From contig JAJBTU010000026.1 in NCBI GenBank assembly GCA_020860715.1, positions 1-51,114 of the forward strand: DNA of 51,114 nt, read 5' to 3'. Of this stretch, positions 397-17,677 are shown piece by piece. The notes under the pieces are model-generated. The model did not search any database. It saw only the letters and a program-made list of their open reading frames with translations, and was not told the DNA's origin. Each line of letters begins with the position of its first letter. The first letter of the stretch is position 1. Made by a program: the position numbers and the translations under genes. This DNA comes from Clostridiales bacterium (GTDB lineage: Bacteria > Bacillota > Clostridia > Lachnospirales > Lachnospiraceae).

Positions 397-894
397 ATGA
401 AAAGGAAACGAATCATGGCGGCAGCTTTTTCTCTGATACTTGTGATCGGGAATTCTACAGCCGCCTTTGCTATGGATGAGGCAGCTTTATCGGAGACGGA
501 GTCCGCTGTAGCAGAAACAGAGCAGGAACTCACCGCTGTCACCTTAAACGAAGTGGCTCATTCAATCTTCTACGCACCGCAGTACGTGGCGATTGAGTTG
601 GGTTATTTTGAGGAGGAAGGTATTGATCTTACAGTTGTGACGGGCTTCGGCGCGGATAAGACAATGACTGCGCTGATTTCTGGTGAGGCGGATATCGGGT
701 TTATGGGCTCGGAGTCCTCGATTTATACCTACAGCGGCGGTGCGGCGGATGCACCGGTCAATTTTGCGCAGCTCACCCAGCGCGCCGGGAATTTTGTGGT
801 CGCCAGAGAGGATACCGATGAATTTGAGTGGAGTGATCTGATCGGAAAAGATGTGTTGGGCGGGCGTGCGGGTGCCGTCCCCTTGTTAATGTAA
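397..894 (+). pseudogene. NMT1/SsuA-like substrate-binding protein, 5' fragment
   Basis: This is the N-terminal half of a periplasmic-type ABC substrate-binding protein of the SsuA/NMT1/THI5 kind. It has a signal peptide (about residues 1-28, ending TAAFA) and the family pattern of a short strand, FYAPQYVAIELGYFEEEG, then GEADIGFMG. The ATG at 397 is chosen because AAAGGA sits 8 nt upstream. After position 874 the frame enters the mobile element and stops at 894, giving about 165 residues. The missing half resumes at 19679; joined at CGGGTG the reading frame is restored (GRAG then GMPEMV). The intact protein would probably deliver a small organic substrate to a SsuBC-type transporter that is not in the window. 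Confidence 0.9.
869..874 (+). other. attL core
   Basis: This is the left copy of the 6 bp CGGGTG shared by both junctions. Reading inward from the two cores, the element ends are mirror images: AATGTAAAT occurs at 888-896 and, inverted, at 19655-19663, at the same distance from the core. The dyad centre falls on the GG at 871-872, the predicted crossover dinucleotide. Confidence 0.85.
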
Positions 895-945
895 ATTATG
901 AGACGATTGTAATTTTATATAACTGGGTGGAAAGGATGGAACAAA

Positions 946-1422
946 ATGAACGATTTGAGACAAAGGATTCATGACGACAGCAACGGCTTGGACTATGTGC
1001 TTGTTGGAGATTATTACATCCCTGACCTGATTCTGGACAAGCCTAAGGAAGAACCAGAGGAACAGCGCTCTATTGGGAAATGGGGACGGATGCACAAAGA
1101 ATATCTGAAGGAATGCCGTCCGGTGGTGTATAATAATCTGCTGCTGTCCGGCAGACTTTGGGCATATCTTGCCGACCTGAATGAGCAAGCACAGGCGCGC
1201 CTGGAAGTCATCATTGATCAGATGAAAGATACCGAAGGTGTGACTGAGGATTTGAAGCGCCGTGATTACTGGAAGCGCCCCCTCGTTTCACTCGGCGGCA
1301 AGTCGGGTGCCCATATAAAAACGCTTCGCGTTGGGGCACCCTGGTGGGGCTGGGTGCAGCATATGGAAAACATCCAGAATCGTGCCGAGGAGATCATCCG
1401 GGCAGAAATGATTTATCAATGA
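946..1422 (+). CDS. tnpV: TnpV-family transposon protein with internal insertion
   Basis: The protein has 158 residues and matches the TnpV family of Tn4451-like elements: a GDYYIPDL strand near the N-terminus, then IGKWGRMHKEYLKECRP, LLLSGRLWAYLADLNEQAQ and the C-terminal WVQHMENIQNRAEEI. Usual TnpV proteins are about 120 residues; here about 28 extra residues lie between TEDLKRRD and GWVQHM (DNA about 1261-1350), carrying an inverted repeat. TnpV's role is not established; it may assist excision. In the circular form its start would overlap the end of the recombinase frame (stop at 972-974), which suggests coupled expression. The family call is sure, the function is not. Confidence 0.85.
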   Translation: MNDLRQRIHDDSNGLDYVLVGDYYIPDLILDKPKEEPEEQRSIGKWGRMHKEYLKECRPVVYNNLLLSGRLWAYLADLNEQAQARLEVIIDQMKDTEGVTEDLKRRDYWKRPLVSLGGKSGAHIKTLRVGAPWWGWVQHMENIQNRAEEIIRAEMIYQ

Positions 1423-1442
1423 CTATGTATTGGAACAGCGGA

Positions 1443-1468
1443 GCCGTCTCTTCGGAGGCGGCTTTTCT
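1443..1468 (+). terminator. Rho-independent terminator after tnpV
   Basis: GCCGTCTC, loop TTCG, GAGGCGGC (one G-T pair), followed by TTTTCT. It lies 20 bp after the tnpV stop and closes the left transcription unit. Confidence 0.85.
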
Positions 1469-1495
1469 ATTCTGTCTGAATGATATAGTTTAATC

Positions 1496-1524
1496 TGGTA
1501 AAGGGGCATTTTGACCCCTTACCA
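1496..1524. repeat. Palindrome P1, left flank of cargo
   Basis: This imperfect palindrome has arms GGTAAAGGGG and CCCCTTACC around a CATTTTGA centre. It belongs to the same family as the palindromes at 1731-1751 and 11238-11467, which share a G-rich arm and a TCA-N3-TGA type centre. The 200 bp between here and the next palindrome hold no recognisable gene. Confidence 0.7.
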
Positions 1525-1721
1525 AAGGCATACTGTCTGCATTTAGAGGCTTTGAAAGCCTTATTTTTAAGGGTAAAATGAGAGCAAAAGTGATATCCGT
1601 GGAAATTTTATCGAGGATGCTTATTTTTGTGTTTCTAAATGCGGACAATGGAAAAATGAGAGAAAAGCAAGGAATGGAATGAATCATTTGAAACCACAGG
1701 TATCGGCAATCGCGATCTTTG

Positions 1722-1757
1722 ATGCAAGGTAAGTGGTCAAAATGACCACTTAGCAAA
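1722..1757. repeat. Direct repeat with 21 bp palindrome, left copy
   Basis: The palindrome AAGTGGTCA / AAA / TGACCACTT (1731-1751) sits inside a near-identical stretch of about 35 bp that recurs in the same orientation at 11392-11427; one base differs in the part before the palindrome. The two copies bracket the cargo exactly: this one ends 14 bp from the histidine kinase stop. Confidence 0.9.
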
Positions 1758-1770
1758 AATAAGAGACAAA

Positions 1771-3093
1771 TCAGTGGATTGATATTTGTTTGCTGTTCGT
1801 ATTTGCAGGCAGCACTACTATAAATTCGGCGCCTCCCTCCGCTGAATCCTGCACAGAGATAGTGCCATCATGCAGTTCCATAATCTCTTTCGCAATGCTT
1901 AGTCCCAGCCCGAAATGATTTTTGTCGGTTCTGGACTGATCATACCGATAGAAACGCGAAAATATTTTTTCCTTTGCGTCGTCCGGAATGCCGGGGCCGC
2001 TGTCACTTACTGTAATGGTAAATTTATCGTGAGATTCAAAGACAGCGGCCAAAATATGCCCGCCCTCAGGAGTATAGGAAACCGCATTATCAAACAAAAT
2101 TGTGAAAACCTGTGTTAAACGTTCAGGATCGCAGTATGCCATAGCGTCGGATTCTTCAGGAATTGAGATTTCCAGAAAAATATTTTTGTGTATCGCAGCC
2201 GCTTCAAATTTTTCATATGTTTCCAGAAACAGGGTGTACAGGCAGACGTCTTTTTTATGGATTGCGATCTTGCCATTATCCAGGGAGGCAAGCGTGAACA
2301 TATCATTTACAAGGCGTTGCATACGCAGGCTTTCTTTTTTTATAGTCTGAAGAAATTCCTTTTTCTGACCTGGACAGGATTCCATTGCAGACAGGGACGA
2401 AATCAGCACGGCCAGGGGCGAGCGTAGTTCGTGTGAAGCATCCGCAAAGAAATTGATCTGGCGCTTATGCCCTTCTTCCAATGGACGAACGAGGTGGCGA
2501 ATCAGGAAGAATGACAGCAGGCTTAACAGGAAAATAGCGCACAGAGTAATCATAATAACAGACCGATAAAGGCTGTTCGTCCAGATATCCTGCAACACGG
2601 GAAAGCGGATAGCAGTGATACAGAGAACAGAATAATTCGTGGAAATATAGGCCACGGATGTCTGACAGCTTCTGCTGATTCCCTCAGAGCTTTTATTCAT
2701 TTGAAACTCTTTGTGTACAAGCGAAGAACCGTCTGCGACCGAAAGCTCTGAGATGGCAAATTCATTCAAAGCCGTTTCCTGCGCCTGGGTAAACAACAAT
2801 TCCACATCTGCATCCACTTGATTTTGGCGATAGAGAAGAGGCTCTCCGTTATCCAGAACCGAAATTATAAGGTCGTTGCTCAAACATACTTCGTCAAGCC
2901 AGGAATGGGAAAGCGTAACCTCTCCGGTGAAATCCTGATAAAGCTCACTCACCGTTTCCTCAAAATCCTGAAAGCTGGTCAGTTCTTCGTTTTGGTGAAG
3001 CAGAAAGAGTAAAACAGCAGTCATAGACAATAGAATCAGAGAGATGATAAGGATACAGAAAAGTGTCATTTTTATGCGGAGTTTACGGAACAT
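1771..3093 (-). CDS. Sensor histidine kinase
   Basis: This 440-residue membrane sensor kinase autophosphorylates and passes phosphate to the adjacent response regulator. Two membrane segments (about residues 10-31 and 178-197) enclose a roughly 145-residue extracellular sensor domain that I do not recognise. The catalytic core is complete: H-box FFADASHELRSPL, N-box LFDNAVSYTPEG, G1 DSGPGIPDD, an F-box around FSRFYRYD and G2 HFGLGLSIAKE. It starts directly after the regulator's stop, so the two are cotranscribed and probably translationally coupled. The target operon lies divergent, beyond the regulator. The signal is unknown; the neighbouring lipoprotein and adaptor suggest something outside the cell. 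Confidence 0.95.
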   Translation of the reverse strand: MFRKLRIKMTLFCILIISLILLSMTAVLLFLLHQNEELTSFQDFEETVSELYQDFTGEVTLSHSWLDEVCLSNDLIISVLDNGEPLLYRQNQVDADVELLFTQAQETALNEFAISELSVADGSSLVHKEFQMNKSSEGISRSCQTSVAYISTNYSVLCITAIRFPVLQDIWTNSLYRSVIMITLCAIFLLSLLSFFLIRHLVRPLEEGHKRQINFFADASHELRSPLAVLISSLSAMESCPGQKKEFLQTIKKESLRMQRLVNDMFTLASLDNGKIAIHKKDVCLYTLFLETYEKFEAAAIHKNIFLEISIPEESDAMAYCDPERLTQVFTILFDNAVSYTPEGGHILAAVFESHDKFTITVSDSGPGIPDDAKEKIFSRFYRYDQSRTDKNHFGLGLSIAKEIMELHDGTISVQDSAEGGAEFIVVLPANTNSKQISIH

Positions 3094-3777
3094 TTATTCA
3101 GACACCTCCTCTACATTCAATCGATATCCTGCACCTCTTACTGTTTTTAACTGGACGAGACTGTCAAGTTTCTTCAAATGATTTCGCAGAAGATAGATGA
3201 AATTATCCACATTCCGGTTCTCCACCTCCGCATTCCCATTCCAGACATTTGCAAGGAGCGCCTCTCTCGAAAAGGTCTGGTTTGCGTGATTCATGAAAAA
3301 TAAAAGAAGGGCGGATTCACGCGCAGTAATCGGCACTGTTTTTCCGTTACATAGTAAGACCTGTTTATTTGTGTCTAAAACCAGATCTCCAACAGATGGC
3401 GGGCCGGTCTTTATTATTTGAGGCCGACGAAGAATGCAGTGGATACGAGCTAACAGTTCTTCGAAAGCGAATGGTTTTACCAGATAATCGTCAGCTCCGC
3501 GGTTCAGACCTTCAATTTTTTGCTCCAGATCGCCTATACCTGTGAGAAAGATCACAGGTATAGCAATCCCCTTATCCCTTATAATCTGTAGAAAATCAAT
3601 GCCACTTAAAACCGGCATCTTCCAGTCGAGCAGAATCAGATGGTAGGTCTGCTGCTGCAGGTAAAACAGGCCGTCATTGCCATTTGTACAGGTATCCGTT
3701 TCGAATCCGCTGTTGGCAAGCTGTATCTTTAACGAGTAAGAAAAATCAAGATCATCTTCAATCAGCAATATTCTCAT
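3094..3777 (-). CDS. OmpR-family response regulator
   Basis: It has 227 residues with an N-terminal receiver domain (acidic pair IEDD, phospho-acceptor Asp in LILLDWKMP, conserved Lys in LVKPFAFEELLARI) and a C-terminal winged-helix domain ending VRGAGYRLNV. It is the first gene of a minus-strand pair with the histidine kinase. OmpR/PhoB-type regulators bind tandem half-sites about 11 bp apart, and exactly such repeats lie in the divergent intergenic region (4197-4274), so it most likely activates the operon starting at 4340. That last step is inference from site spacing and position. Confidence 0.95.
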   Translation of the reverse strand: MRILLIEDDLDFSYSLKIQLANSGFETDTCTNGNDGLFYLQQQTYHLILLDWKMPVLSGIDFLQIIRDKGIAIPVIFLTGIGDLEQKIEGLNRGADDYLVKPFAFEELLARIHCILRRPQIIKTGPPSVGDLVLDTNKQVLLCNGKTVPITARESALLLFFMNHANQTFSREALLANVWNGNAEVENRNVDNFIYLLRNHLKKLDSLVQLKTVRGAGYRLNVEEVSE

Positions 3778-4196
3778 GTGTGCCTCTCTCTTTCATAATA
3801 ATACAAAATTCTATTCCATAAATGGCCTGAATATTTGCTGCCAGTTTAAAAACTTCATTACTGCAAGTAGTATCAATGCAAATTCTGGTTATACCAAAAT
3901 CGTCTTTCTGAGAAAACTGTGATTCTTTCGTGATAGACTGCGTATTTCCTCAGAAGTATTCAGAACTCTGGTTTTTGTGCTGGTGTACCATGCCTTTGAT
4001 ATCTTGTCAAGGATACGCAGAGCTACCTTTGCTATTCTTGACTGTCCGCCTGAGATATGGATAAATGCAACCGAGGAACATACCTGAAGACTGCGCGGTT
4101 CAAAGTAGGATCATCATATAGCAGGACTGGGATGAGTGCGCTACTTGAACATATACAGCATAAACTTCTTGTAATTTACATTATACACTACGAATG
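3778..4196. other. Intergenic region between regulator and cargo operon
   Basis: About 420 bp with no convincing gene. On the minus strand a frame stays open for roughly 70 codons (about 3889-4107, containing ISGGQSRIAKVALRIL) without a start codon or ribosome site. It might be the relic of a displaced gene, but I cannot identify it. The right end holds the operator and promoter described separately. Confidence 0.4.
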
Positions 4197-4291
4197 TCTA
4201 AATTTTATCTAATCTTCAATGATTTTTAGACGAAAATTAGATAAAGAAATTTTTCCATTTAGATTAAATTTAGATATTTGCCTGATAGAAT
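4197..4291 (+). promoter_or_regulatory. Putative response-regulator operator and promoter of the cargo operon
   Basis: There are three pairs of 5 bp half-sites, each pair spaced exactly 11 bp: TCTAA at 4197 and 4208 (inverted), TTAGA at 4226 and 4237, and TTAGA at 4259 and 4270. The two TTAGA pairs are themselves in 11 bp phase (4226 to 4259 is 33 bp). The last pair ends 11 bp before a -10-like TAGAAT (4286-4291), and no good -35 is visible where one would lie. This is the arrangement of a PhoB/OmpR-activated promoter in which the regulator replaces the -35 contact. Translation starts at 4340. Confidence 0.7.
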
Positions 4292-4339
4292 GGTATCAGA
4301 AGCAAGGAGCAGGAATGCTGAAAGGAGAAAGCGGAGGCT

Positions 4340-5182
4340 ATGACAAGACAAAAACGCTGGAAGGGCTATCTATGGATTTTGCCGAGCCTTTTTGGAACAA
4401 TTATTTTTTACTGTGTACCACTGATGGACGTAATCCGCCGCTCAGTGACGGAAAATGCAGGTTCTGCATTTGTTGGACTGAAGAATTTTCAAACGGTTTT
4501 TAACAATACAGCCTTTCAGCTGGCAGCAAAAAATACGCTGCGATTTATTGCCGTATGCATCCCGCTTCTGCTGTCTTTGTCATTGCTGTTGGCAGTAGTG
4601 ATCGTGCGATGCCGATGGGGGAATTTTTATAAAAGTGCAATGCTGCTGCCGATGGTTTTACCGGCGGTGTCGGTGGCACTGATCTGGAAGCTTTTGTTCC
4701 ATAACCATGGCGTATTAAACGGGGGATTGACCCTGATCGGGCTTCAAACAACAGACTGGCTGAATTCGGGGGCGTCCTTCTGGGTTCTGGTGCTCAGCTA
4801 TCTGTGGAAAAATATCGGGTATGACATAGTTTTGTGGATAGCTGGCCTGCAGCAGATTGAAAATGACATTTACGAAGCAGCCCGTGTGGATGGAGCCGGG
4901 GAAATCAGGATATTTTTCTGGATTATTCTTCCAAATATGAAGCAGGTATTTTACACAGTGGCGGTGCTGTCCCTGCTGAATTCTTTTAAAGTGTTCCGGG
5001 AGGCTTATCTGGTGGCGGGCAATTATCCGCATGAAAGCATGTATTTGATGCAGCATCTGTTTAACAACTGGTTTGCGGCGCTGTCCCTGGATAAGATGTC
5101 AGCAGCATCTGTGCTGCTGGGCATGGTGATCCTTTTGATGATCATTCTTTTGTACAGGGCGTGGGGAGACGATCTCTGCTGA
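4340..5182 (+). CDS. Sugar-type ABC transporter permease (MalF-like)
   Basis: This 280-residue inner-membrane permease of the carbohydrate uptake type-1 family has six predicted membrane segments and the cytoplasmic EAA loop EAARVDGAGEIRIFFWIILP, which docks to the ATPase. It is the first gene of the cargo operon, 29 bp before its partner permease. The ATG at 4340 follows GGAGG very closely (2 nt) and AAAGGAG at 12 nt, so the exact start is slightly uncertain. The expected ATP-binding subunit is absent; a shared MsmX/UgpC-type ATPase from elsewhere in the genome could energise it. The lipoprotein at 8894-11194 is the likely binding partner. Confidence 0.9.
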   Translation: MTRQKRWKGYLWILPSLFGTIIFYCVPLMDVIRRSVTENAGSAFVGLKNFQTVFNNTAFQLAAKNTLRFIAVCIPLLLSLSLLLAVVIVRCRWGNFYKSAMLLPMVLPAVSVALIWKLLFHNHGVLNGGLTLIGLQTTDWLNSGASFWVLVLSYLWKNIGYDIVLWIAGLQQIENDIYEAARVDGAGEIRIFFWIILPNMKQVFYTVAVLSLLNSFKVFREAYLVAGNYPHESMYLMQHLFNNWFAALSLDKMSAASVLLGMVILLMIILLYRAWGDDLC

Positions 5183-5210
5183 CCCTGGAGAGAGGAGTGG
5201 ATATAAGGAT

Positions 5211-6056
5211 ATGAAGCATTGCGGAAAGGGAATGGAAGCGTTGATACTGCTGTTTATTCTGGTTATGATCGTTCCGGTTTGCATACTGGCAGCAGGTTCT
5301 TTTATGGGTGAAGATGAACTGATCCTGAAGCTAGGCGCGATCCTTGGAACAGGGGACGGTTATGCGGAACTGACGCTGACGCCCATTTATCCGACATTAA
5401 AAGCGTATGTAGAAGTTTTGCTGGACACGCCGGAATTTTTTGTAATGTTCTGGAATTCCGTGAAGATTACAGCAGGCTCATTGGCAGTGCAGCTTATATT
5501 TGGCACATTAGCCGCATGGGGATTCGCTAAATGGGAGTTTCCTTTGAAGAAAGCGTTGCTGTGGCTGTATATTGTTCTGATGTTGATGCCTTTTCAGGTA
5601 TTGATGCTCTCGGATTATCTGGTTTTGCAGAGGCTGAATCTGCTGGATAGTCATCTGGGGCTGATACTGCTGTGCGGATTTTCGACATTTCCGGTTTTCA
5701 TTATGTATCGGTTTTTCTGTGGGATTCCGGACGACGTGATGGAGGCGGCCAGGCTGGATGGGGCGGGAGATGTCAAATTGTTTTTTTACATTGGGCTTCC
5801 GCTTGGAAAATCCGGTATATTCTCTGCAATGATCCTTGGGTTTCTGGAAAGCTGGAGTATGATTGAGCAGCCAATGACATTTTTAAAAACGAAGAGCCTG
5901 TGGCCATTATCCATTCTGCTGCCGGAAATCGAATCGGGAAGCATCGGGTTTGCGTTTGGAGTGTCTGTGTTGACTTTCCTTCCTGCCTTGCTGATATTTT
6001 TAAATGGGCAGGAGTATCTGGAAAAGGGAATATCCGCTTCACAGGTGAAGCAGTGA
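5211..6056 (+). CDS. Sugar-type ABC transporter permease (MalG-like)
   Basis: This is the second permease of the pair, 281 residues, with a long extracytoplasmic loop after the first membrane segment, the conserved NSVKITAGS region and the EAA loop EAARLDGAGDVKLFFYIGLP. GAGAGGAG and AAGGAT precede the ATG. With the upstream gene it should form the heterodimeric channel of an importer. MalG proteins usually end in a segment that contacts the ATPase; the C-terminus here is slightly degenerate (EKGISASQVKQ). The substrate cannot be told from sequence. Confidence 0.9.
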   Translation: MKHCGKGMEALILLFILVMIVPVCILAAGSFMGEDELILKLGAILGTGDGYAELTLTPIYPTLKAYVEVLLDTPEFFVMFWNSVKITAGSLAVQLIFGTLAAWGFAKWEFPLKKALLWLYIVLMLMPFQVLMLSDYLVLQRLNLLDSHLGLILLCGFSTFPVFIMYRFFCGIPDDVMEAARLDGAGDVKLFFYIGLPLGKSGIFSAMILGFLESWSMIEQPMTFLKTKSLWPLSILLPEIESGSIGFAFGVSVLTFLPALLIFLNGQEYLEKGISASQVKQ

Positions 6057-6086
6057 AACAATATAAAACGAAAGTGGGATAAAAAT

Positions 6087-7574
6087 ATGAAGAAATGGCT
6101 TAGGAACGTCAGTGTCGGTTTTCTGACTGTAATGGTCAGCTTTACCTTTCTTTCACGGGCAGCTGCGAGCGTGACAACTGATGTGGTTCAGACCCAGAAA
6201 GCGGTTTCCGGAAGGATCAGCCATTCGGTGAGCGTGTCCGGAAAAATTGAATCGACGCAGGAAATATCCATAACGGTTCCGGCACAGAGAACGGTTGAGG
6301 CTGTTTATGTGCAGGAAGGTGACGGTGTAGAAGCTGGTGACGCCCTTTTTTTGCTCTCCGAAAACCAGGAACTGGCGGAGGCACAGGAAGCGTTTTATAC
6401 ATGGGAGACAAAGGAACGGATGAATCTGGAAACTGCGGCGGACACTTACCTTAATGCATATGAGAGCTGGCAGAAATATCTGACAAAAACAGATGGCTGG
6501 TACTGGAAATCGGAAGCAGACCATGAAGAGGACGATTTGGAGGAAGCCATGCGGGCGGCCCAGTATGAGTATTTTGAAAAATATAAGACTTATCTGGAAA
6601 CCTATGTCAAATGGCAGGAGGATGTGATTGAAAATTTTGACACTGATAATTCTGATGTAGAAAATACCCGCAATGAAGTTTTCAGCGCCAGGGAGGCAGT
6701 CGTGACTGCAAGGTCAGCTTATTATGAATATCAGCGCAGCAGGGATAAGACCTACCAGTATTCCCGTACAGATGAAGAAAAGGAACTGCGGGAAGCGCTG
6801 GAAGATGCGATTGCGGACTATGAGGAGGCACTGGACACTTTTGAAAGCGGGCTGGCGGAAAAGGTGAAAGACATTGCGGATGCGGAAGATGGGCTTTCCG
6901 ATGACTGTATTGTGTATGCGGAAACGGCGGGAACCGTAAAGGATGTAAATGTCTTGGCGGGTGATACGACTACCACGTCAGCGGCTGCGGTGCTGGCGGT
7001 GGATTCCGAAAACAAGAAGGTTACAGTCACCGTGTCTGCCGAATATGAGGAATACATAGAGGCGGGAGACAGTGTAACCGTAACAAAATATGGGGAGACG
7101 GAATCAATCGCAGGAGCAACCATATCTGATATCCAGTATGACGAGGATGATACGAGCTTATTGAAAGTGACTGTTTTACTGACATCAACGACTGCCTCGG
7201 AAAAAGATTCATCCAATAGTGAAGATGTTTCTGCTGAAGGAACGGAAATTGTAATCGCAGAAAATACCAGTGAGGGACTATCCCTTGGAGAACAGGTAAC
7301 GGTGACATTTGATAAACAATCAGAGCAGTACAGTATGCTGGTTCCGGTAAATGCAATTTATACTGACAACGATGAGACTTATGTATTGATCGTGCAGGAA
7401 ACAGAAGGAATCCTGGGTACGGTGCTGGAAGCACAGAAAGTTATAGTGACAGTACTGGATAAAAACAGCAGTTATGCGGCTATTTCAGCCACGGGAGCAG
7501 TTGACCAGGATATTATCACCCAGTCAGACCGCGAGGTAAAAGATGGAAACAGGGTCAGAAAGCAGGTCTCATGA
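6087..7574 (+). CDS. HlyD/RND-type periplasmic adaptor-like protein
   Basis: The protein has 495 residues, with an N-terminal signal or anchor segment (about 9-27), then SVSGKIESTQEISITVPAQ and VQEGDGVEAGDALFLLSE, the paired lipoyl-like and beta-barrel signature of membrane-fusion adaptors. A long charged coiled coil (about residues 95-270) and a C-terminal barrel follow (LSLGEQVTVTF, LVPVNAIY). In Gram-positives such adaptors accompany MacB-type exporters. The gene overlaps the MacB-like gene by 4 nt (ATGA), so the two are coupled. The odd point is that this adaptor sits in one operon with importer-type permeases and has no MacB ATPase. Confidence 0.85.
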   Translation: MKKWLRNVSVGFLTVMVSFTFLSRAAASVTTDVVQTQKAVSGRISHSVSVSGKIESTQEISITVPAQRTVEAVYVQEGDGVEAGDALFLLSENQELAEAQEAFYTWETKERMNLETAADTYLNAYESWQKYLTKTDGWYWKSEADHEEDDLEEAMRAAQYEYFEKYKTYLETYVKWQEDVIENFDTDNSDVENTRNEVFSAREAVVTARSAYYEYQRSRDKTYQYSRTDEEKELREALEDAIADYEEALDTFESGLAEKVKDIADAEDGLSDDCIVYAETAGTVKDVNVLAGDTTTTSAAAVLAVDSENKKVTVTVSAEYEEYIEAGDSVTVTKYGETESIAGATISDIQYDEDDTSLLKVTVLLTSTTASEKDSSNSEDVSAEGTEIVIAENTSEGLSLGEQVTVTFDKQSEQYSMLVPVNAIYTDNDETYVLIVQETEGILGTVLEAQKVIVTVLDKNSSYAAISATGAVDQDIITQSDREVKDGNRVRKQVS

Positions 7575-8713
7575 GCATGAGAAAAAGAAGAAAACAGGAT
7601 GCCAAAAGCCAGCAAAAAGAATATTTATATCCATGTGAATTGATGGAACCGGCAGCTATAGCTGCCCGGATATCTGACTGGATGAGAATTATAATCTGCA
7701 TGGTATTATTGGTAATTTGTGTTGCTATGGGATTCAGGGAACTGCGAGGTTTTCAAAGCCAGGATGGCAGATGGAGCTATGTGAGTAATGGTGGTATTTC
7801 CCTGCAAACGGCAGAGGAAATACTGGAAGCAGTCGCCTCAGATCAGAATCTGACAGACATGGTATTCTGGGCGCAGAAAAGTGACCAGGTAATATCCGTT
7901 ACAGAGCCGGTGGAAAGGGAAACGGAAGCAAATGTGATCTTGATTCGCGGTGATCCGCGTCTTCTGGTTGGTAACTATAACGTGCCACAAAGTGGGGATA
8001 CAAACGGATGCCTGATCAATAAATCTACTGCCTTGAAACTCTTCGGCAATACAGATGTAATTGGTCTTTCAGTATGCTATGATGGCCGGGAATATCAGAT
8101 ACTTGGCTTGCTGGACATCTCCGAATCTGCAATAATCATCCAGATGCCTTTAGGGAGCGGGGAAGTATTTACAAGGGTTACTGCGGAAAAGAATGGAGAT
8201 ACCACAAGCTGGAATCTGAAAAATACGCTTCAAAACAAATATCAGGTTTCGTTAAGTGAGATTCGGTGGGGCTTCCTGCGCGAGATTGTAAAAATTCTGT
8301 TCTGCTTCAATGTGATGGCAGTTTACGCCCGGCTGGTTCATTCCCGGAGGCGTAGAGCGAAAAAAACATGGCGGGCTGATTGCATTTATCTGCGTTTCGC
8401 TGGCACTATAAAATTTCTTATAGGTGTTTTATTACTGGTATTCTTATTGAAATTAACAGGAATGACTCAGATTTCGGCCGAATTTATACCGGCGAAATGG
8501 TCTGATTTCAGCTTTTATGGGGAGGTTCTTGATACATGGAAAGATGGAATGACCGGTTTTTTGGAACTTCCATTCTATGCACTGGAAATTCAGTGGTTTC
8601 AAAATTGTCTGAGCCTTAGCTTTTGGACCGTTTTGGGAGGTGCTGCTTCCTGCTATGCAATCCGTTATACGAGAAAAGTGACTGAGGAAAGGATAGAAGA
8701 AATATGTAACTGA
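7571..8713 (+). CDS. MacB/FtsX-like membrane protein without ATPase
   Basis: It has 380 residues. The topology resembles MacB-type permeases: one membrane segment (about 39-58), an extracytoplasmic domain of about 180 residues containing NVILIRGDPRLLVGNYNVP and LNKSTALKLFG-like text (INKSTALKLFGNTDVIG), then three membrane segments near 238-256, 279-298 and 352-371. The extracytoplasmic part resembles the MacB periplasmic core domain, though sequence similarity is weak by eye. It starts inside the adaptor's stop codon. The stop codon (8711-8713) lies inside the end of a MITE-like insertion, so the last residues may have been changed by that insertion. Confidence 0.65.
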   Translation: MSMRKRRKQDAKSQQKEYLYPCELMEPAAIAARISDWMRIIICMVLLVICVAMGFRELRGFQSQDGRWSYVSNGGISLQTAEEILEAVASDQNLTDMVFWAQKSDQVISVTEPVERETEANVILIRGDPRLLVGNYNVPQSGDTNGCLINKSTALKLFGNTDVIGLSVCYDGREYQILGLLDISESAIIIQMPLGSGEVFTRVTAEKNGDTTSWNLKNTLQNKYQVSLSEIRWGFLREIVKILFCFNVMAVYARLVHSRRRRAKKTWRADCIYLRFAGTIKFLIGVLLLVFLLKLTGMTQISAEFIPAKWSDFSFYGEVLDTWKDGMTGFLELPFYALEIQWFQNCLSLSFWTVLGGAASCYAIRYTRKVTEERIEEICN

Positions 8714-8866
8714 TTCAGAACAGCAGGCCACAGACCGCCTTCTCCGAAGGCTATATGCCGCTTGCGCGTCATATTCTCCGCTGCCGCTCCGGTCGGTACT
8801 AAACGAGCGCCACTGGCGCTCAGCACCTGAGGCTTGATGGGTCTACGCTCCGCTTCTGAACTGTTA
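8707..8866. repeat. MITE-like structured insertion
   Basis: This 160 bp GC-rich segment separates two operon genes. Its ends are imperfect inverted repeats: TAACTGATTCAGAA at 8707-8720 and, inverted, TAACAGTTCAGAA at 8854-8866. It contains two perfect hairpins, GCCTTC-tcc-GAAGGC (8737-8751) and GAGCGCC-act-GGCGCTC (8805-8821). No gene is visible in it. Its base composition differs from the genes on both sides. It may be a non-autonomous mobile element; a structured RNA affecting expression of the lipoprotein is the alternative. Confidence 0.55.
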
Positions 8867-8893
8867 TACAATATATGGAAGGAGAGGTTTGAA

Positions 8894-11194
8894 ATGAAAG
8901 AGAACATTAAAAAAATGGGTTTCGTGTTGGTTATGGTGCTTGCCTTGACCGGCTGTGGAAGTGCTACGAATACAGGCATTTCATCGGGAACGGATGATGC
9001 GGTGCAGATTGAAAGCACTACAGAAGGAACGGCTGCGAATTCACAGGAGGATTTGACCGCTGATACGGATACTGACTCTCAGAATTCAGATGTTTCAGCT
9101 TTATCTGGAACTGTAGATAACAGTGAGTCTACGTATAGGGAAGAGGATCTGGAACTGCCGGATGACAGCACGCAGATATTTGCTATGCGGGAAATTAATG
9201 GAACCCTCTGGCTGATCACGGAAAATGGTGTATATACATCGACAGACAAAGGAGACAGTTGGGCAAGGCAGGAAGAGCAGAGCGGATGGCTGCCAGAAGA
9301 AATTTCAGAGGGAGATGGTTATGCGTCAATCAGCGATTCCGGAAAGATGGCGTTTTACACGGAATCGGCAGGGATTCTTGTATATAGTACAGATGGATCG
9401 TCAACGGGACTGAGTATTACATTTGATGATGGCAGACAGTGCTATGGAATCAATTTTGCAGATGATGATACGCTGACGTTAAGAGACACCGGTTCAACTA
9501 TCTATATCCTTTCGGCTTCGGATGGCAGCATTGTTGGTACGATCCCTTCCAGTAATGAGATGCACTATGCTTATGCGCCTGTCAATGGGGAAGTCCTGAC
9601 CATTACAAATGACGGCGTGAAGATTTACAATTACAAGGGAGAATTACAGGAGGGAAACGAGATTATAAGCAGCCTTGTATCGGCTGACTATGAAGCATGG
9701 TCGACGACATCCAGCGGCGGGGGAATTGTGGATGATATAGAAGGCACCGGAATTTTCTATGCGAGCAAAAGCGGACTTTATCACTATAAATGGGGCGGAG
9801 GTGTTGCGGAAAAACTGTTTGAGGGAAGTGCTACAAAGCTGGGTGACTCTGATTATACGGTCTGGTCGGTTGCCGCACTTAGTGACTCCTGCGTTTTGTG
9901 TCATTACTTAACAGCGAGTGGCGCTTCCCTGCTGGTACGCTATTCTTTTTCAGGGAACAGCCCGACGACACAAAAACTGACACTCTATACGTTGTATGAA
10001 AATGAACTGCTGACCGATGAGGTGAATACGTTCAATCAGAACCACACAGATATTCAGGTGACAATAGAAGTGGGGCTGTCCGGAGACAGTGGCCTTACGG
10101 TTGATGATGCGATTAAAACATTGAATACGGAAATTTTGGCAGGGAACGGGCCGGACATTATTCTTCTGGACGGAATGAGTGTGGATTCCTATTCCGAGAG
10201 CGGGATGCTGGTGGACCTGTCCGGCGTTTTATCTGAAGTGGCAGAAAGTGAAGGACTTTATGAGAACATCGCATATACTTACCAGACGGATAGTGGGGCA
10301 GTCTATGCGGTGCCGGCGAGATTCCGGATTATGATGATGGTAGGGACACAGGAAAATTTGAACCAGATTACTGACCTTGATTCTCTGTGCCAGAGTATGC
10401 AGGAATGGAAAGAAGCGGACCCGGACAAGACGAGCATCCTCGGACTTTATGATGAAGAACTGCTGGAAATGATGACTGCCATCTGCTCACCGGCATGGAT
10501 GACAGAAGAAGGCTCATTGGATGAAACTGCACTTCGAGAGTTTCTGGAAGCAGTAAAATCCATCAATGATACACAGAAGGAAAATGTGAGCCAGGCAGAT
10601 ATAGACGAATTTGCCGCATCTGACGATGATAACGATTGGGGAGAGATAAAGGCTGTCCTGAATATTACAAATTTCCAGTCACAGATCATTGGACTGTTCG
10701 AATCCAGGGCACTCAATACGACAGCATCCATCGCGCAATATCTTGGCACGGATCTGATCTACGAAAGTGCAGCGGCACAGAGTAGCAACGTGTTTATTCC
10801 GGCACAGATCATAGGCATAAATGCGAAAAGCACCAACCAGGAAGCGGCTCTGGAATTTGTAAAAGAATTCCTGTCGTCGGAATGCCAGAGCGAGCTTAGT
10901 GTCTCAGACCGTGGCTATCCGATCAATAAGACTGCTTTCCAGATCATGGAAGAGGATGTCCTGGGTGCGGATGATACCGGAGAAACAAGCTGGGGAGTAA
11001 GTGCGGAAGAACTTCGCAACCTGTTTGACCAGATAGAAGCTATGATACCGGAGCTTTCCAACCGAAGTGTTACGGATGCAGTTATTACAGACAGTGTGAA
11101 AGAGGAGGGGTTGAAATATCTCTCAGGCGAGGCTGACCTGGATACTGTAGTGAGCAGTATTATGCAGACGGTGACCCTGCACTTGGCGGAATAA
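8894..11194 (+). CDS. Lipoprotein: beta-propeller-like domain fused to family-1 solute-binding domain
   Basis: It is 766 residues, starting at the ATG behind GGAGAGG. A lipoprotein signal ends at Cys21 (VLALTGCGS). An acidic, Ser/Thr-rich linker follows to about residue 75. Residues about 76-355 repeat short strands of the kind NGVYTSTDKGDSW and TNDGVKIYNYKG, typical of sialidase/BNR-like propellers. Residues about 361-766 form an extracellular solute-binding domain (LYTLYENELLTDEVNTFNQ, GPDIILLDG, LVDLSGVL, FIPAQIIGINAKS). It should be anchored outside the membrane and feed the permeases at 4340-6056. A propeller on a binding protein is unusual and suggests a large or polymeric ligand, or contact with the adaptor. 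The domain reading is by eye. Confidence 0.8.
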   Translation: MKENIKKMGFVLVMVLALTGCGSATNTGISSGTDDAVQIESTTEGTAANSQEDLTADTDTDSQNSDVSALSGTVDNSESTYREEDLELPDDSTQIFAMREINGTLWLITENGVYTSTDKGDSWARQEEQSGWLPEEISEGDGYASISDSGKMAFYTESAGILVYSTDGSSTGLSITFDDGRQCYGINFADDDTLTLRDTGSTIYILSASDGSIVGTIPSSNEMHYAYAPVNGEVLTITNDGVKIYNYKGELQEGNEIISSLVSADYEAWSTTSSGGGIVDDIEGTGIFYASKSGLYHYKWGGGVAEKLFEGSATKLGDSDYTVWSVAALSDSCVLCHYLTASGASLLVRYSFSGNSPTTQKLTLYTLYENELLTDEVNTFNQNHTDIQVTIEVGLSGDSGLTVDDAIKTLNTEILAGNGPDIILLDGMSVDSYSESGMLVDLSGVLSEVAESEGLYENIAYTYQTDSGAVYAVPARFRIMMMVGTQENLNQITDLDSLCQSMQEWKEADPDKTSILGLYDEELLEMMTAICSPAWMTEEGSLDETALREFLEAVKSINDTQKENVSQADIDEFAASDDDNDWGEIKAVLNITNFQSQIIGLFESRALNTTASIAQYLGTDLIYESAAAQSSNVFIPAQIIGINAKSTNQEAALEFVKEFLSSECQSELSVSDRGYPINKTAFQIMEEDVLGADDTGETSWGVSAEELRNLFDQIEAMIPELSNRSVTDAVITDSVKEEGLKYLSGEADLDTVVSSIMQTVTLHLAE

Positions 11195-11237
11195 AGGAAG
11201 TGAGATACCGCTTCAGATTCTCTCATGTGTTGATCTT

Positions 11238-11467
11238 GGTGAAGGGTCAATTTTGCTCTTTACTAAAATCGGAGTGTCAGTGGTCTGGGTCAGTTTGACC
11301 CAGACCAAAAACTGTTTTTGAATTGCTACATCAACAGTTTTTCTACGCTGTATCATCATGGCAGCATAAAAAATATTTCTTTTACTCTTTCATGCGAGGT
11401 AAGTGGTCAAAATGACCACTTAGCAAACAGATATCTAAAGTGGTCTGGGTCAATTTGACCCAGACCA
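11238..11467. repeat. Palindrome cluster, right flank of cargo
   Basis: Four palindromes lie between the lipoprotein stop and the XRE gene: an imperfect one at 11238-11265; a 12 bp-arm hairpin TGGTCTGGGTCA / TGACCCAGACCA at 11281-11307; the 21 bp palindrome AAGTGGTCA / TGACCACTT at 11401-11421, in the direct repeat shared with 1722-1757; and a second copy of the 12 bp-arm hairpin at 11441-11467. They lack T-runs, so simple terminators are unlikely. All share a GGTCA-N3-TGACC type centre. No gene is present in this 280 bp gap. Confidence 0.9.
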
Positions 11468-11475
11468 AAATATAT

Positions 11476-12342
11476 TCATTTCTTCTTTTTTCTCTTACTG
11501 GAATTTTTCTGCTGGTGAAGGGCCGCCCGTCCGCGCTGGCTGATGACCGTGCTCATGATGGGAGATTTGCGGATAATGCGCGCAAGGGTTTCCTGATCAT
11601 CTGGTGAGAGTCGGTCATAATCAATCTTCAATGTCTGACAGACTAAATACGCTCTTTTTTGGTCAAGGCTTCCCTCGTAGTTCAGAGCATTTTCCAGCAT
11701 TTCCTGTACTTGTTCCGTGGTCGCGGCAGTGTCATGATCCGTGTCGGCAGTTGTTTGGTCTTTCTGGTGTGCGGCACGGATGTCCCTTACAATAGAATCC
11801 AGGTCGTCATGGATTACGTGGCTGTAAAAAATATCTTCATTGACCTGTGCAAGTTCTAATGTCCGGACGGTAATATCATGATCGTCCGGCGAGTATTTTT
11901 CAATAATGGTCTGCCGTGTTTTTTCCAGAAGCTGATTCATGTCATTAATATGCATATCTGCAATCCGATCAACACAAATTTCAATATCTGTCAGAAGCTG
12001 ACAAAATCCGGGATGGAGTACCAGTTCACAGAGCAGCCGATTATTAATACAGCCGCTGCTCAATAGCTTTACCATATCATCATTCAGATGCAGAGCCTGC
12101 AGATCTGTGTCTGGATGTTTTTTATTTTCAGATAATCCCAGAAGATAATCGGTGGAGACACCATAAAATTCCGCTAGAGTTGCGATGGCGAATGGACTGA
12201 TGTCCTTAAAATTATTGGACTCATAATTACCCAGAGCAGAACGCGACAGACCTGTCTGCTCCGATAACTGTTCCAGAGTAAGGTGCTTATCGTCTACACG
12301 CAAATCCTTTAGCCGTTCCTGTATGGTCAGCTTTGTTTCCAT
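11476..12342 (-). CDS. XRE-family regulator of the mobilization region
   Basis: The 288-residue protein has an N-terminal Cro/CI-type helix-turn-helix (about residues 12-70: LTLEQLSEQTGLSRSALGNYES, then FYGVSTDYLLGLSE) and a long C-terminal part with no motif I know, ending in a lysine-rich tail. AAGGAGAC precedes the ATG. It is divergent from the relaxase across the oriT-like region, the usual place for a regulator of transfer genes. A palindrome over its own -35 (12401-12418) suggests autorepression. The C-terminal part may sense a signal or bind a partner; nothing in it shows which. Confidence 0.85.
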   Translation of the reverse strand: METKLTIQERLKDLRVDDKHLTLEQLSEQTGLSRSALGNYESNNFKDISPFAIATLAEFYGVSTDYLLGLSENKKHPDTDLQALHLNDDMVKLLSSGCINNRLLCELVLHPGFCQLLTDIEICVDRIADMHINDMNQLLEKTRQTIIEKYSPDDHDITVRTLELAQVNEDIFYSHVIHDDLDSIVRDIRAAHQKDQTTADTDHDTAATTEQVQEMLENALNYEGSLDQKRAYLVCQTLKIDYDRLSPDDQETLARIIRKSPIMSTVISQRGRAALHQQKNSSKRKKKK

Positions 12343-12389
12343 GCTTGCTGTCTCCTTTCATCTGGTCGGTTTTACCGGCCGTTTAAGGG

Positions 12390-12418
12390 ATTATAACAGA
12401 TTTCCAAAAGCGTGGAAA
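12390..12418 (-). promoter_or_regulatory. Promoter and probable operator of the XRE gene
   Basis: On the minus strand TATAAT (12390-12395) lies 17 bp after a weak -35 TTTCCA (12413-12418). That -35 is one arm of the palindrome TTTCCA-aaagcg-TGGAAA (12401-12418), well placed for autoregulation. Confidence 0.55.
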
Positions 12419-12542
12419 TATCCTTTTTCTCTCGGCTTTTCCTGCGTCTTGGACATACGGGAAAAGACCGCCCTATTTGGTACAATTCTTATAAAACAAA
12501 GGGTACATTGACAACTGAATAGCCGGCTGTGAGTGGAATATG

Positions 12543-12812
12543 CTTTCGGGGGAAGTGACGCGATGACATGAGCGCACCAAAGTGAGCAATACGCCGGGAA
12601 AAGAACCCGGCAGGAAGATTGTAGCAGATCCGGTGTAAATAGTAATTATTCGTAACTATTCAATCGGGAAACTGCCGGGCTGTGTGATTCAAGGACGGCA
12701 GTCCTTGCCGGGTCAAGGGTGGAACGCCTTGCCCAGCTAAGATTGATGCCTTGCGTCAATCTGTACTGGGTATTACCTGCCGCAAAAAGGCTCACAATCT
12801 AAGGCTGATTGA
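12543..12812. other. Putative origin of transfer (oriT)
   Basis: The 500 bp gap before the relaxase holds a run of inverted repeats: GCCGGG/CCCGGC (12593-12611), AATAGT/ACTATT (12638-12660), AAGGAC/GTCCTT (12691-12706), CAAGG/CCTTG (12714-12731) and GATTGA/TCAATC (12741-12761). Dense hairpins directly upstream of a relaxase are typical of oriT. The nick site cannot be placed from sequence. The stretch 12419-12540 shows nothing further. Confidence 0.65.
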
Positions 12813-12844
12813 GACAGGTTTGAAAGGAAGGAGATTTTTGTTTT

Positions 12845-14191
12845 ATGAAAATGACAAGGCACAACGGGCGCTCTGGCAAGAATGGAACTTACAACCCGAA
12901 GCACAATGACCGTCGGTTTAATCTGGAAAACAGTGAACACATTGACGCGGAGCGTGCAAGGAAAAATATCTATTGGGATATTTTTAACGGTTACCGATCT
13001 TTCGCGGATATGGACAAAGAGACGGAGCTTGCGGACACGTTTGAAGATGTGGAGCAATTATATTACTCTCATTTTTACCGTGACTTTGTAGAAGGACAGA
13101 ATGGACGGAACGAAAAAAACCGGCATTCGGAACGCAACCGATCTGCTGACGATATTCGGAAGAACAAAAAGACCTGTCCGGAAGAATCGCTCTTTCAGCT
13201 TGGGACGATGGATGATCATGCTTCGCCGGAAGTATTGCTGCAGGTGGCGCTGGAGTTTATGGATGCATTCGAGAAAAGATTTGGTTCCCATATCCATATA
13301 CTGGACTGGGCGCTTCATCTGGATGAGAGTACGCCGCATATTCATGAGCGCCATGTGTTCGACTGTGAAAACAAGTATGGTGAACTGTGTCCGCAACAGG
13401 AGAAAGCACTGGAAGCTTTAGGCTTCGACTTGCCGGAGCCGGACAAGAAAGCAGGACGTTATAATAACCGGAAGATGGTTTTCGATTCTGCCTGTCGCGC
13501 GATGATGTTTGATATTGCAAAAAGTCACGGCTTAAATCTGGATGAGGAGCCGGAATACGGAGGCTGCAAATATCTGGAGAAACAGGATTATATTCTGATG
13601 AAACAGAAAGAAAAAATCTCGAAACGTGACCTGACAATTGAACAACAGGGAGAGAAAATCTCCGATCAGGTCAAGACATTGCTGGTTCAAAACGCGGAGA
13701 TCAAAGAGAACGCCGGGCAGATCAGAGAACAGACGGAGAAGCTGGAGGAACTATCTTTAAAGGTTGAAGATGTGGAGACTTTGATACAGGATGTATCGGA
13801 AGCTGCCTACGATAAAGCGGTGGAAGTCGTGACTGAAAAAGTCCGGGTGCAGACCCAGCAGGAGGACATTGCTGCGGTTGCTGATTATCAGAAAAAACTT
13901 AATCTGCCGGATGCGAAAGTCAACTCCAAAGTGCTGCCTACGGTTAATAGAGTTCTGGATAATGTCCAGTCAATTTTGAAAAATGCTGCAAAGCAGATGC
14001 AGAAAAAAATCAGCACCGCACTGAAAGCGCCGGAGAACAGAAACAATGGTGTGGAACAGGTGAAGGAAAAAGCCAGGGAATCTATCTATGACGCTCTTAA
14101 GAGAGGTAAGATCAAAGCTGATCAACAGAATGAGGAACGCCGGGCACGGCAAAGTGGCCGACAAACCCGAAAAAAGAATATGGAGATATAA
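12845..14191 (+). CDS. MobV-like (Mob/Pre family) relaxase
   Basis: This 448-residue protein probably nicks the element at oriT and pilots the strand during transfer. The key evidence is the metal-binding histidine motif HLDESTPHIHERHVF (about residues 158-172), as in Mob/Pre relaxases, preceded by an N-terminal domain beginning TRHNGRSGKNGTYNPKHNDR. From about residue 250 onward it is a long charged coiled coil (EKISKRDLTIEQQGEKIS and similar heptads), ending in a basic tail. GGAAGGAGA lies upstream of the ATG. Related proteins are sometimes mislabelled as serine/arginine-rich matrix proteins. The relaxase call is firm; the MOB class is less so. Confidence 0.8.
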   Translation: MKMTRHNGRSGKNGTYNPKHNDRRFNLENSEHIDAERARKNIYWDIFNGYRSFADMDKETELADTFEDVEQLYYSHFYRDFVEGQNGRNEKNRHSERNRSADDIRKNKKTCPEESLFQLGTMDDHASPEVLLQVALEFMDAFEKRFGSHIHILDWALHLDESTPHIHERHVFDCENKYGELCPQQEKALEALGFDLPEPDKKAGRYNNRKMVFDSACRAMMFDIAKSHGLNLDEEPEYGGCKYLEKQDYILMKQKEKISKRDLTIEQQGEKISDQVKTLLVQNAEIKENAGQIREQTEKLEELSLKVEDVETLIQDVSEAAYDKAVEVVTEKVRVQTQQEDIAAVADYQKKLNLPDAKVNSKVLPTVNRVLDNVQSILKNAAKQMQKKISTALKAPENRNNGVEQVKEKARESIYDALKRGKIKADQQNEERRARQSGRQTRKKNMEI

Positions 14192-14252
14192 CCGGCGCTT
14201 GCCATTTTCATATTGAGAATGTCGGGCGCATTTTTATTTTGATGAGGAGATT

Positions 14253-14912
14253 GTGATGAATGTATTTGAAGCGGTGAAACAGTTTGTCACTCCCCGGCAG
14301 GCTGCGGAGCATTACGGGGTAAAAGTAAACCGGAGCGGGATGGCCTGCTGCCCATTTCATTCCGATAAGAATCCAAGTATGAAGTTTTATAAGCAGCGAT
14401 TCCACTGCTTTGGCTGTCAGGCTGACGGTGATGTGATTGACTTCGCAGCTCGGCTTTTTGGTTTATCGGTAAAGGAGGCTGCAGAAAAGCTGGCTACTGA
14501 CTTTGGAATTAATTATGAAAGCAGTCATAAAAGCGGGAGCCGTGCGTCACCCCGTCCGGTGAAAAGAAAAATATCGGAAGAACTGCGTTTTAAACAGGCA
14601 GAGCAAAAGTGTATCCGTGTTTATTCGGATTATCTCCGGCTGTTAGAACGGTGGCGGACAGAATACGCTCCGAAGCCGGATGAGAAAAACTGGCATCCGC
14701 TGTTTGTGGAAGATTTGAAAAAACAGACGTATGTGGAATATCTGCTTGATGTACTGCTGTCTGGATCTTTGAAAGAACGTGCGGAGTTGATCGCAGCACA
14801 GGGAGAGGAGGTGATACGGATTGAACGAAGAATATCAGAATTTGCCGCCCGAGACCCGGCAGGCCGTGGAGAATGCCGCCCGGCTGCTCGAACCGGCACG
14901 GACGACAGATGA
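14253..14912 (+). CDS. CHC2 zinc-finger DNA primase-like protein
   Basis: The 219-residue protein has an N-terminal CHC2-type zinc finger: CCPFHSDKNPSMKFY, then FHCFGCQADGDVIDFAARL, as at the start of DnaG. The Toprim catalytic domain is absent, so it is a primase N-terminal module alone. It overlaps the VapE gene by about 90 bp in another frame. Together they probably support replication of the excised circle or complementary-strand synthesis after transfer. Stand-alone CHC2 proteins next to VapE-like ATPases are common on clostridial mobile elements. Confidence 0.85.
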   Translation: MMNVFEAVKQFVTPRQAAEHYGVKVNRSGMACCPFHSDKNPSMKFYKQRFHCFGCQADGDVIDFAARLFGLSVKEAAEKLATDFGINYESSHKSGSRASPRPVKRKISEELRFKQAEQKCIRVYSDYLRLLERWRTEYAPKPDEKNWHPLFVEDLKKQTYVEYLLDVLLSGSLKERAELIAAQGEEVIRIERRISEFAARDPAGRGECRPAARTGTDDR

Positions 14913-16233: not shown

Positions 16234-16434
16234 CTGTATCTGTCAACAAAAAGCAAAGTCTGTTGACACTGCGTTGACAGGTCTGTTGACAGCTTATTTC
16301 CTTTATTTACGGGCTTTTTTCTCCTTATTTCTTTTATCAACAAAAAAGAAAAGGAAAAGAAAAAAATTGCGGATGAGGGGCAGGGAAAGCGTAAGAAAAA
16401 ATTTTCTGATGCTTGTTGACGGGAATCGTTGACA
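16155..16434. repeat. Iteron-like GTTGAC repeats, putative replication origin
   Basis: Eight copies of GTTGAC(A) in both orientations: inverted at 16155-16161, 16164-16170 and 16241-16247; direct at 16262-16268, 16273-16279, 16285-16291, 16415-16420 and 16428-16434. Three direct copies are spaced 11-12 bp, on one helix face. Between the groups lies a purine-rich A-tract (about 16330-16367). Iterons plus an easily melted tract behind a VapE gene suggest an origin for the excised circle. The rest of the 16234-16530 gap holds no gene. Confidence 0.6.
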
Positions 16435-16530
16435 CCCCTGCCGGCCTCGTTCCCTATTAGATAGACAGGCACGAAAAATGCCGGATGTCAATATCATAAA
16501 AATATCAGGACATGAAAGGAAGTGATAACG

Positions 16531-16713: not shown

Positions 16714-16721
16714 CAATGAAA

Positions 16722-17303: not shown

Positions 17304-17307
17304 GAAG

Positions 17308-17490: not shown

Positions 17491-17614
17491 TTATCTCATC
17501 TTCCTTTCCTTTTCGAGCCGCTGATCGGCTTTTTACATTGTAATGATGTAGCGATACTGCTGCATGAAATATACGCATTTAAATGAAAACATAGCATCGT
17601 CTGATGTTTACAGT

Positions 17615-17643: not shown

Positions 17644-17677
17644 TTGCCGCTTTGACATAAAAAAATGAAAAATTTTA

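Follow-up and report, generated by a model that had tools for sequence, protein, structure and literature searches.

A recurrent and apparently undescribed gene set in Lachnospiraceae combines sugar-type importer permeases with an HlyD-type adaptor and a MacB-like subunit, and lacks its own ATPase

A stretch of the contig JAJBTU010000026.1 (51,114 nucleotides, positions 1 to 51,114 of the forward strand; assembly GCA_020860715.1) of a Clostridiales bacterium of the family Lachnospiraceae, referred to here as the window, carries a set of seven genes in which parts of a sugar importer stand beside parts of a MacB-type exporter. All seven are present and intact where the initial annotation of this DNA had placed them. 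A sensor histidine kinase (1771..3093, minus strand; 440 residues, with HisKA and HATPase_c domains) and an OmpR-type response regulator (3094..3777, minus strand; 227 residues; Response_reg 1.2e-25, Trans_reg_C 7.4e-19) are divergently encoded from five codirectional genes on the plus strand. About 145 residues of the kinase are extracellular and are flanked by two transmembrane segments, as judged by eye. The operon opens with two importer permeases, P1 of the UgpA/MalF type (4340..5182) and P2 of the UgpE/MalG type (5211..6056), both of which match the Pfam domain BPD_transp_1 over its cut-off (1.3e-13 and 1.7e-10, respectively); the best-scoring models are UgpA and UgpE, but the scores are far under the cut-offs of those two models. 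These genes are followed by an HlyD/MacA-type membrane-fusion adaptor (6087..7574, 495 residues), a MacB-like subunit (7571..8713, 380 residues) and a lipoprotein with the lipobox LTGC (8894..11194, 766 residues from the ATG), for which an alternative TTG start can be read at 8834. The spacer between the last two genes holds a copy of a dispersed repeat (8713..8845), further copies of which occur in L023/L046 and part-copies in other related loci.

The adaptor resembles MacA (4dk1, 8.7e-10), and it matches HlyD_D23 of Pfam with 28.6 bits against a cut-off of 30 and RND_mfp of NCBIfam at 3e-14, which is also under the cut-off. These matches are below the curated cut-offs, yet they are repeated throughout the family, the members of which differ in length. 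The MacB-like protein of the window matches MacB_PCD weakly (20.4 bits versus a cut-off of 27), and 26 of its 52 relatives match the same domain (E up to 0.01). A profile of the family aligns with the solved extracellular domain of YknZ at 4.7e-6. The predicted structure (predicted local distance difference test, pLDDT, 85.4; predicted template modelling score, pTM, 0.80) matches the folds of MacB proteins, including YknZ, so that by this model the protein retains the MacB fold, a predicted type VII fold without a nucleotide-binding domain. In addition, a WSDF motif is conserved in the extracellular loop between the third and fourth transmembrane segments. The FtsX domain of Pfam, which represents the coupling region, was matched by none of the 52 members at E 0.01, whereas a canonical MacB permease encoded near one of the related loci, taken as a control, scored 78.7 bits. 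By a rough hydropathy estimate, the gap between the second and third transmembrane segments has a median of 16 in the 42 members measured versus 30 in that canonical neighbour.

The lipoprotein combines two regions. Its C-terminal part (357-766) is a sugar-type solute-binding domain (SBP_bac_1/8 of Pfam, 2e-10), the nearest solved relatives of which are sugar binders, and among the matches listed in the fold searches all derive from this domain. The carbohydrate-type solute-binding protein by which a CUT1-type importer is recognized is thus present. The N-terminal region (about 78-352) is propeller-like, as indicated by profile matches, by the predicted pattern of strands and by a single Asp-box (STDKGDSW).

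We have collected relatives of the lipoprotein from one genome collection; the search gave 377, and the locus counts below refer to the best 80 of these (L041-L120). The initial annotation had regarded the five genes as one functional unit and had named rarity of the combination elsewhere as an outcome that would speak against this. In fact, the genes are commonly found together: all five operon genes occur in 57 of the 80 loci and all seven genes in 51. Considering only those loci in which the respective gene was found or in which more than 7 kb follows the binding-protein gene, the counts are 70 of 75 for P1, 70 of 74 for P2, 71 of 73 for the adaptor and 61 of 70 for the MacB-like gene. Likewise, the kinase-regulator pair is present in 63 of the 67 informative loci, which are those that hold the pair or extend more than 5 kb upstream. 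Contig ends explain the missing P1, P2 or adaptor matches in L042, L044 and L046; P1 is split over two open reading frames (ORFs) in L103, and in L049 the binding-protein gene is no more than a fragment. A second selection, made on basis of the MacB-like gene, comprised 20 loci (19 hand-picked from matches within the family and one from a phylum-wide sample) and showed all five genes in every case; both kinase and regulator were found in 15 of these, neither in L149 and L156, while the stretch was too short in L148, L150 and L151. The two selections overlap (L145 and L087, for example, are from the same genome) and are not independent. Among the 80, a complete kinase-regulator pair is lacking in L049, L056, L062, where the kinase is present and the regulator unmatched, and L093.

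The gene order varies. It is P1-P2-adaptor-MacB-binding protein in the close relatives of the window and binding protein-P1-P2-adaptor(-MacB) in most other loci. Other orders occur as well, among them those of L066, L118 and L155, where the binding-protein gene lies beyond the kinase pair, and of L163, where P1 and P2 come last. The binding protein is encoded in two to four tandem copies in 13 of the 80 loci. Among the Lachnospiraceae, 56 of 397 genomes encode a protein of the MacB-like family, as do two of the 398 genomes of the phylum-wide sample, one of which is that of the window itself; a further case outside the family is G060 (L033). The set is therefore sporadic in the family and rare outside it. 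No match to the cassette was obtained in a plasmid search.

A comparison of the window with its relatives of the same genus (L041 and L048) gave ratios of nonsynonymous to synonymous substitution rates (dN/dS) of 0.07-0.10 for P1 and P2, 0.11-0.22 for the kinase, regulator, adaptor and lipoprotein genes, and 0.36-0.37 for the MacB-like gene. All seven genes are under purifying selection, and gene decay was rejected on this ground (dN/dS 0.07-0.37). A chance neighbourhood was likewise rejected: the arrangement is conserved across loci, even where protein identity falls to about 20-30%, and its genes are under selection. The idea of one functional unit is well supported by the co-occurrence of the genes, by the divergent two-component pair and by the direct repeats between this pair and the operon. 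It applies less strictly to the MacB-like gene, which is not obligatory: no match follows the adaptor in nine loci (L056, L062, L067, L068, L104, L106, L107, L109 and L114). Since these nine lack only this gene, the MacB-like part is accessory.

The direct repeats lie between the two-component pair and the operon. An alignment of five close loci revealed three sites of the form TTAGAY-N5-TTAGAY in the window, at 4196-4212 (minus strand), 4226-4242 (plus) and 4259-4275 (plus), where 0.04 would be expected. They are the only such sites in the 2.67-Mb genome, in which the pattern read backward, as a control, occurs twice; it should be noted that the pattern was derived from this very locus. More generally, 45 of 54 loci have an exact 7-base direct repeat with a spacing of 10-12 bases in the gap between regulator gene and operon, versus 2.6 in base shuffles. 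By our own count these 45 comprise 32 repeats with TTAGAG or CTCTAA, 5 with TTTAGAT or GTCTAA, 5 with TTAAAG and 3 others. The repeats are likely binding sites of the regulator, and the restriction of the pattern to this locus suggests that the regulator is devoted to the operon.

The initial annotation had remarked on the absence of an ATPase and had considered that related loci might contain one that was simply deleted here. No gene for an ATP-binding cassette (ABC) ATPase is present within the set of the window. Moreover, none was found inside the set in any of the 80 loci or of the 20 loci selected by the MacB-like gene, using a profile that was built from two ATPases and counted at scores of at least 40, which could miss a divergent ATPase; a local deletion was rejected accordingly. 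The MacB-like subunit, too, has no nucleotide-binding domain, either fused or encoded in the operon, in the window or in the 80 and 20 loci. The profile does work, as it picked up ABC ATPase ORFs at scattered flanking positions in 21 of the 80 loci. The shortest distances to the set are 83 bp in L080, where the ATPase and kinase genes converge, 669 bp in L066 and 698 bp in L041. In four of the 80 loci (L059, L060, L086 and L091) a run of adaptor, ATPase and adaptor genes lies upstream of the kinase gene, and in L059, the only one read, the gene of a canonical MacB permease comes next. In the second selection, L156 has a gene for an ATPase of 378 residues with an OB_MalK domain, which lies 1.4 kb ahead of the binding-protein gene and is separated from it by two unrelated ORFs; L161 has two genes for fused-type ABC exporters that share the strand of the binding-protein gene and begin 114 bp ahead of it, and L149 encodes a fused-type ABC exporter about 1.9 kb upstream. 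The exporters of L161 and L149 carry their own membrane domains.

The permeases have nevertheless kept the EAA loops with which an ATPase is contacted. Among 71 homologues, the loop of P1 has E in 69, A in 71, A in 71, D in 71 and G in 71, and that of P2 has E in 68, A (39) or S (32) at the first A, A in 69 at the second, D in 71 and G in 71. Loops that are not touched by an ATPase should drift, and their near-invariance therefore points to an ATPase acting in trans; P1 and P2 should still dock one, probably of the UgpC type and encoded elsewhere. The genome of the window encodes one UgpC-like ATPase (G000:C31:93847-95061), with a match to the UgpC model of 2.3e-97 (326 bits versus a cut-off of 432) and a partial OB_MalK domain (23 bits). 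A candidate conclusion that the genome has no MalK-type ATPase was dropped in view of this protein, although its OB-fold region is interrupted. BPD_transp_1 has 43 matches in the same genome, and nine further permease pairs, apparently of the sugar type to judge from their neighbours, lie in seven stretches. None of the 89 ABC_tran matches falls in these seven stretches, a negative that depends on the ABC_tran list, the signature scan being weak (it missed the ATPase-like ORF of L125). Sharing of an ATPase thus seems to be usual in this genome.

The genomic context offers a few hints on the substrate. The flanking ORFs of the 80 loci were grouped in 98 clusters, 13 of which are present in at least five loci. 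A gene for a GH5 cellulase is found near the set in five of the 80 (L066, L069, L078, L090 and L113); it ends 18-380 bp before the set in four of these and 2.8 kb before it in L113, and the member scanned has a CBM2 domain. As four of the five loci are from rabbit-gut ('Lapin') assemblies, they may represent a single inheritance. The association leans towards a glycan as ligand. The other recurring neighbours scanned (an SNF2 helicase, PPK2, a dehydrogenase and a polysaccharide deacetylase) look unrelated. A small protein without Pfam match is encoded beside the copies of the binding-protein gene in L065, L067, L104, L106 and L107.

With slightly better than even confidence, we read the set as a sensor-controlled CUT1-like glycan importer to which an extracellular adaptor assembly has been added and which is powered in trans. 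The substrate is probably an oligosaccharide or a glycan fragment. The solute-binding domain of the lipoprotein would hand this ligand to P1 and P2, and a MalK/UgpC/MsmX-type ATPase from elsewhere would dock on the EAA loops and drive the import. Together with the MacB-like subunit, which has no motor, the HlyD-type adaptor may form an extracellular scaffold or conduit beside the permease, and the propeller region could provide an additional contact, with the wall, the glycan or the adaptor. The kinase would sense either the ligand or the state of the transporter, and the regulator would switch the operon via direct repeats of the TTTAGAGA type.

Several observations weigh against this interpretation. 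The earlier proposal that the set borrows an ATPase of the host has gained indirect support from the intact EAA loops and from the finding that 54 of the 56 genomes that carry the MacB-like family encode a MalK-type OB domain. However, this domain is found in 358 of the 397 family genomes, and the carriers are not significantly enriched over the non-carriers (304 of 341; p = 0.14), the two counts being our reading of two genome lists. In the genome of the window no full MsmX orthologue was found, the best match being partial, and a domain scan of that genome scored no match to OB_MalK; the OB-fold region of its UgpC-like ATPase is broken by a repeat insertion. The exporters adjoining the set in L161 represent a possible different ATPase partner in that locus. 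Furthermore, the kinase belongs to the general type that partners OmpR-like regulators and is no known sugar sensor, the adaptor and the MacB-like subunit could serve a role other than import, and a physical complex of the parts is inferred.

By analogy with the sensing by BceAB and BceS, for which the available portion of PMC7828314 provides a precedent, the lipoprotein, P1-P2, the adaptor and the MacB-like subunit might instead form a complex that detects an extracellular glycan or envelope damage and signals to the kinase, import being incidental or lost. We regard this as unlikely, but worth serious consideration: the two sensor genes go with the set in 63 of the 67 informative loci, the genome has no further copy of the repeat pattern that was derived from this locus, and the MacB-like subunit seems to lack coupling to a motor. 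On the other hand, the near-invariant EAA loops make it seem that ATP-driven cycling is conserved, the kinase has an extracellular domain of its own, unlike the BceS-type kinases, a few loci do without the complete pair (L049, L056, L062 and L093; L149 and L156), and a glycan-degrading gene lies near five of the 80 loci. The initial annotation had likewise considered a signalling relay without transport and, as the ligand, an extracellular polymer or peptide. Improbable, in our estimate, is an arrangement of two modules under one switch, in which the importer stands apart from an adaptor/MacB-like device of the wall zone that has another substrate or belongs to another machine, for instance a complete MacAB-type exporter. 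The persistence of the adaptor with P1 and P2 even where the MacB-like gene is absent argues against such a separation, despite the nine loci that keep binding protein, P1, P2 and adaptor without a MacB-like match. The MacB-like proteins do show the weakest correlation in divergence with the other genes (Spearman 0.36-0.53, a weak measure taken without an unlinked-gene control), and an adaptor-ATPase-adaptor run does lie upstream of the kinase gene in four loci, with a MacB permease after it in L059; yet such a neighbouring exporter is present in only those four of the 80, and drive by a MacB-type ATPase is unlikely for a family that is without the usual coupling region.

As least probable we consider a role in defence against or immunity to antimicrobial peptides, in which a YknWXYZ- or BceAB-like system would keep peptides off the membrane or report them. 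According to the accessible part of PMC5985334, YknX and YknZ, the nearest functional relatives of the adaptor and the MacB-like subunit, protect against SDP, and the OmpR-type sensor pair and the location of the set on a mobile element in the window would be in line with such a role. It is difficult to reconcile with the lack of a MacB-type motor, with a lipoprotein binding domain of the carbohydrate-binding type and with sugar-type permeases with intact EAA loops, which are foreign to both YknWXYZ and BceAB. Returning to the sensor-controlled importer, a more specific and tentative version, to which we attach clearly less than even confidence, is that of a new class of hybrid ABC machine. 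Here, an ATPase in trans would drive the core of a type I importer, and a superstructure in the envelope zone, made up of a ring of adaptors and a type VII subunit without motor, would guide, hold or unfold an extracellular polymer for import; the propeller lipoprotein would act as loading arm and the sensor pair would report activity. If true, the architecture of tripartite pumps would have been reversed for import in Gram-positive-type cells.

By the membership tests run, the set is not a known system; MsmX sharing, YknXYZ and BceAB-BceRS each provide a precedent for individual features. It resembles the CUT1-type sugar importers of Bacillus subtilis that share the single ATPase MsmX (as described in the portion of PMC11466899 at hand) in having a solute-binding protein of carbohydrate-type fold, two permeases with intact EAA loops and no ATPase in the operon; the HlyD-type adaptor, the MacB-like subunit, the propeller-like region of its binding protein and its own OmpR-type sensor pair set it apart. 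As in YknWXYZ and MacAB-type systems of Gram-positive bacteria (PMC5985334, as far as accessible), a membrane-fusion adaptor adjoins a MacB-type protein, which matches YknZ by profile and fold, but a YknY-type ATPase and a recognizable FtsX domain are lacking and the pair is combined with an importer and with a binding lipoprotein. With BceAB-BceRS of Firmicutes (same partial text of PMC7828314) the set has in common that ABC-derived membrane proteins are encoded beside a two-component pair, but it has neither a BceA ATPase nor a large BceB-type permease, and its kinase has an extracellular domain (about 145 residues, by eye) that BceS-type kinases lack. Finally, the YtrBCDEF operon of B. subtilis also mixes ABC membrane proteins, one of them of type VII (PMC7828314; YtrEF is classed as type VII in PMC11466899, both in the parts available); it carries two ATPases of its own, whereas the set has none, and the portion of its description at hand includes no HlyD-type adaptor or sugar-type binding protein.

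Adaptors and MacB-type subunits usually belong to exporters that have their own motor. The set departs from this rule and does so recurrently across a major family of gut bacteria. In the literature searched, which did not cover most subscription journals, no description of the combination was found; the set is apparently undescribed, its parts being of known kinds and their union new. Should the parts indeed cooperate, they would show that one machine can combine ABC components of types I and VII. The set offers a testable instance of a type VII subunit without motor, and through the direct repeats both the regulon and the inducing signal become accessible to direct tests.

In the window the seven genes are the cargo of an integrated element, a context that was absent from the initial annotation. 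The element (18.8 kb, 875..19676) interrupts a gene for an NMT1-like binding protein, pieces of which remain as ORFs at 286-894 and 19583-20257. In two genomes of the same genus (L141 and L142) the site is empty and the NMT1-like gene whole; positions 327/337-874 and 19677 onward of the window abut there with a 6-bp overlap, which places the element at about 875-19676. It encodes a TnpV-type protein, a helix-turn-helix regulator, a DnaG-type zinc-ribbon protein, a VapE-type protein and a large serine recombinase (17755..19704, plus strand; Resolvase 2.2e-27, Recombinase 1.5e-26). Another genome (L027) has the same left junction and the set at the same site, as far as the contig runs, and in L021 a large serine recombinase gene directly follows that of the lipoprotein. 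Near-identical repeats of the GTGGTCAAAATGACCAC type flank the seven-gene set at 1716-1757 and 11386-11427, and a second, palindromic pair lies past it at 11279-11310 and 11439-11470; these pairs are perhaps boundaries of the cargo, or terminators.

A few additional features of this DNA were observed. The element also encodes a protein with a zeta-toxin-like kinase domain (16722-17303, minus strand), and a 160-base direct repeat with 83% identity is shared by the start of the contig (1-160) and the interior of the element (17347-17506). A repeat of about 78-81 bases, the commonest reading of which is ETPPRSASAASRASDAENASRFAGA, occurs in frame within protein-coding genes at positions that differ among relatives. 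It was seen in the adaptor, MacB-like and lipoprotein genes of L022, L024, L025 and L026, and it has 13 matches in the genome of the window (e.g. G000:C31:94683-94754) and is present in 6 of the 25 genomes searched. In 33 of the 41 copies examined the ORF continues on both sides, by a loose rule applied without a control; the repeat is reminiscent of the Rickettsia palindromic elements. Lastly, a gene that by eye resembles a type I restriction specificity subunit (L040:3-1847) lies beside a large helicase-like ORF. Within it are 4.1 copies of a 12-base repeat and a tract of AGCA tetranucleotides that extends into an N gap (window positions 50327-50375 and 51056-51114), features that make the gene a candidate for length or phase variation.

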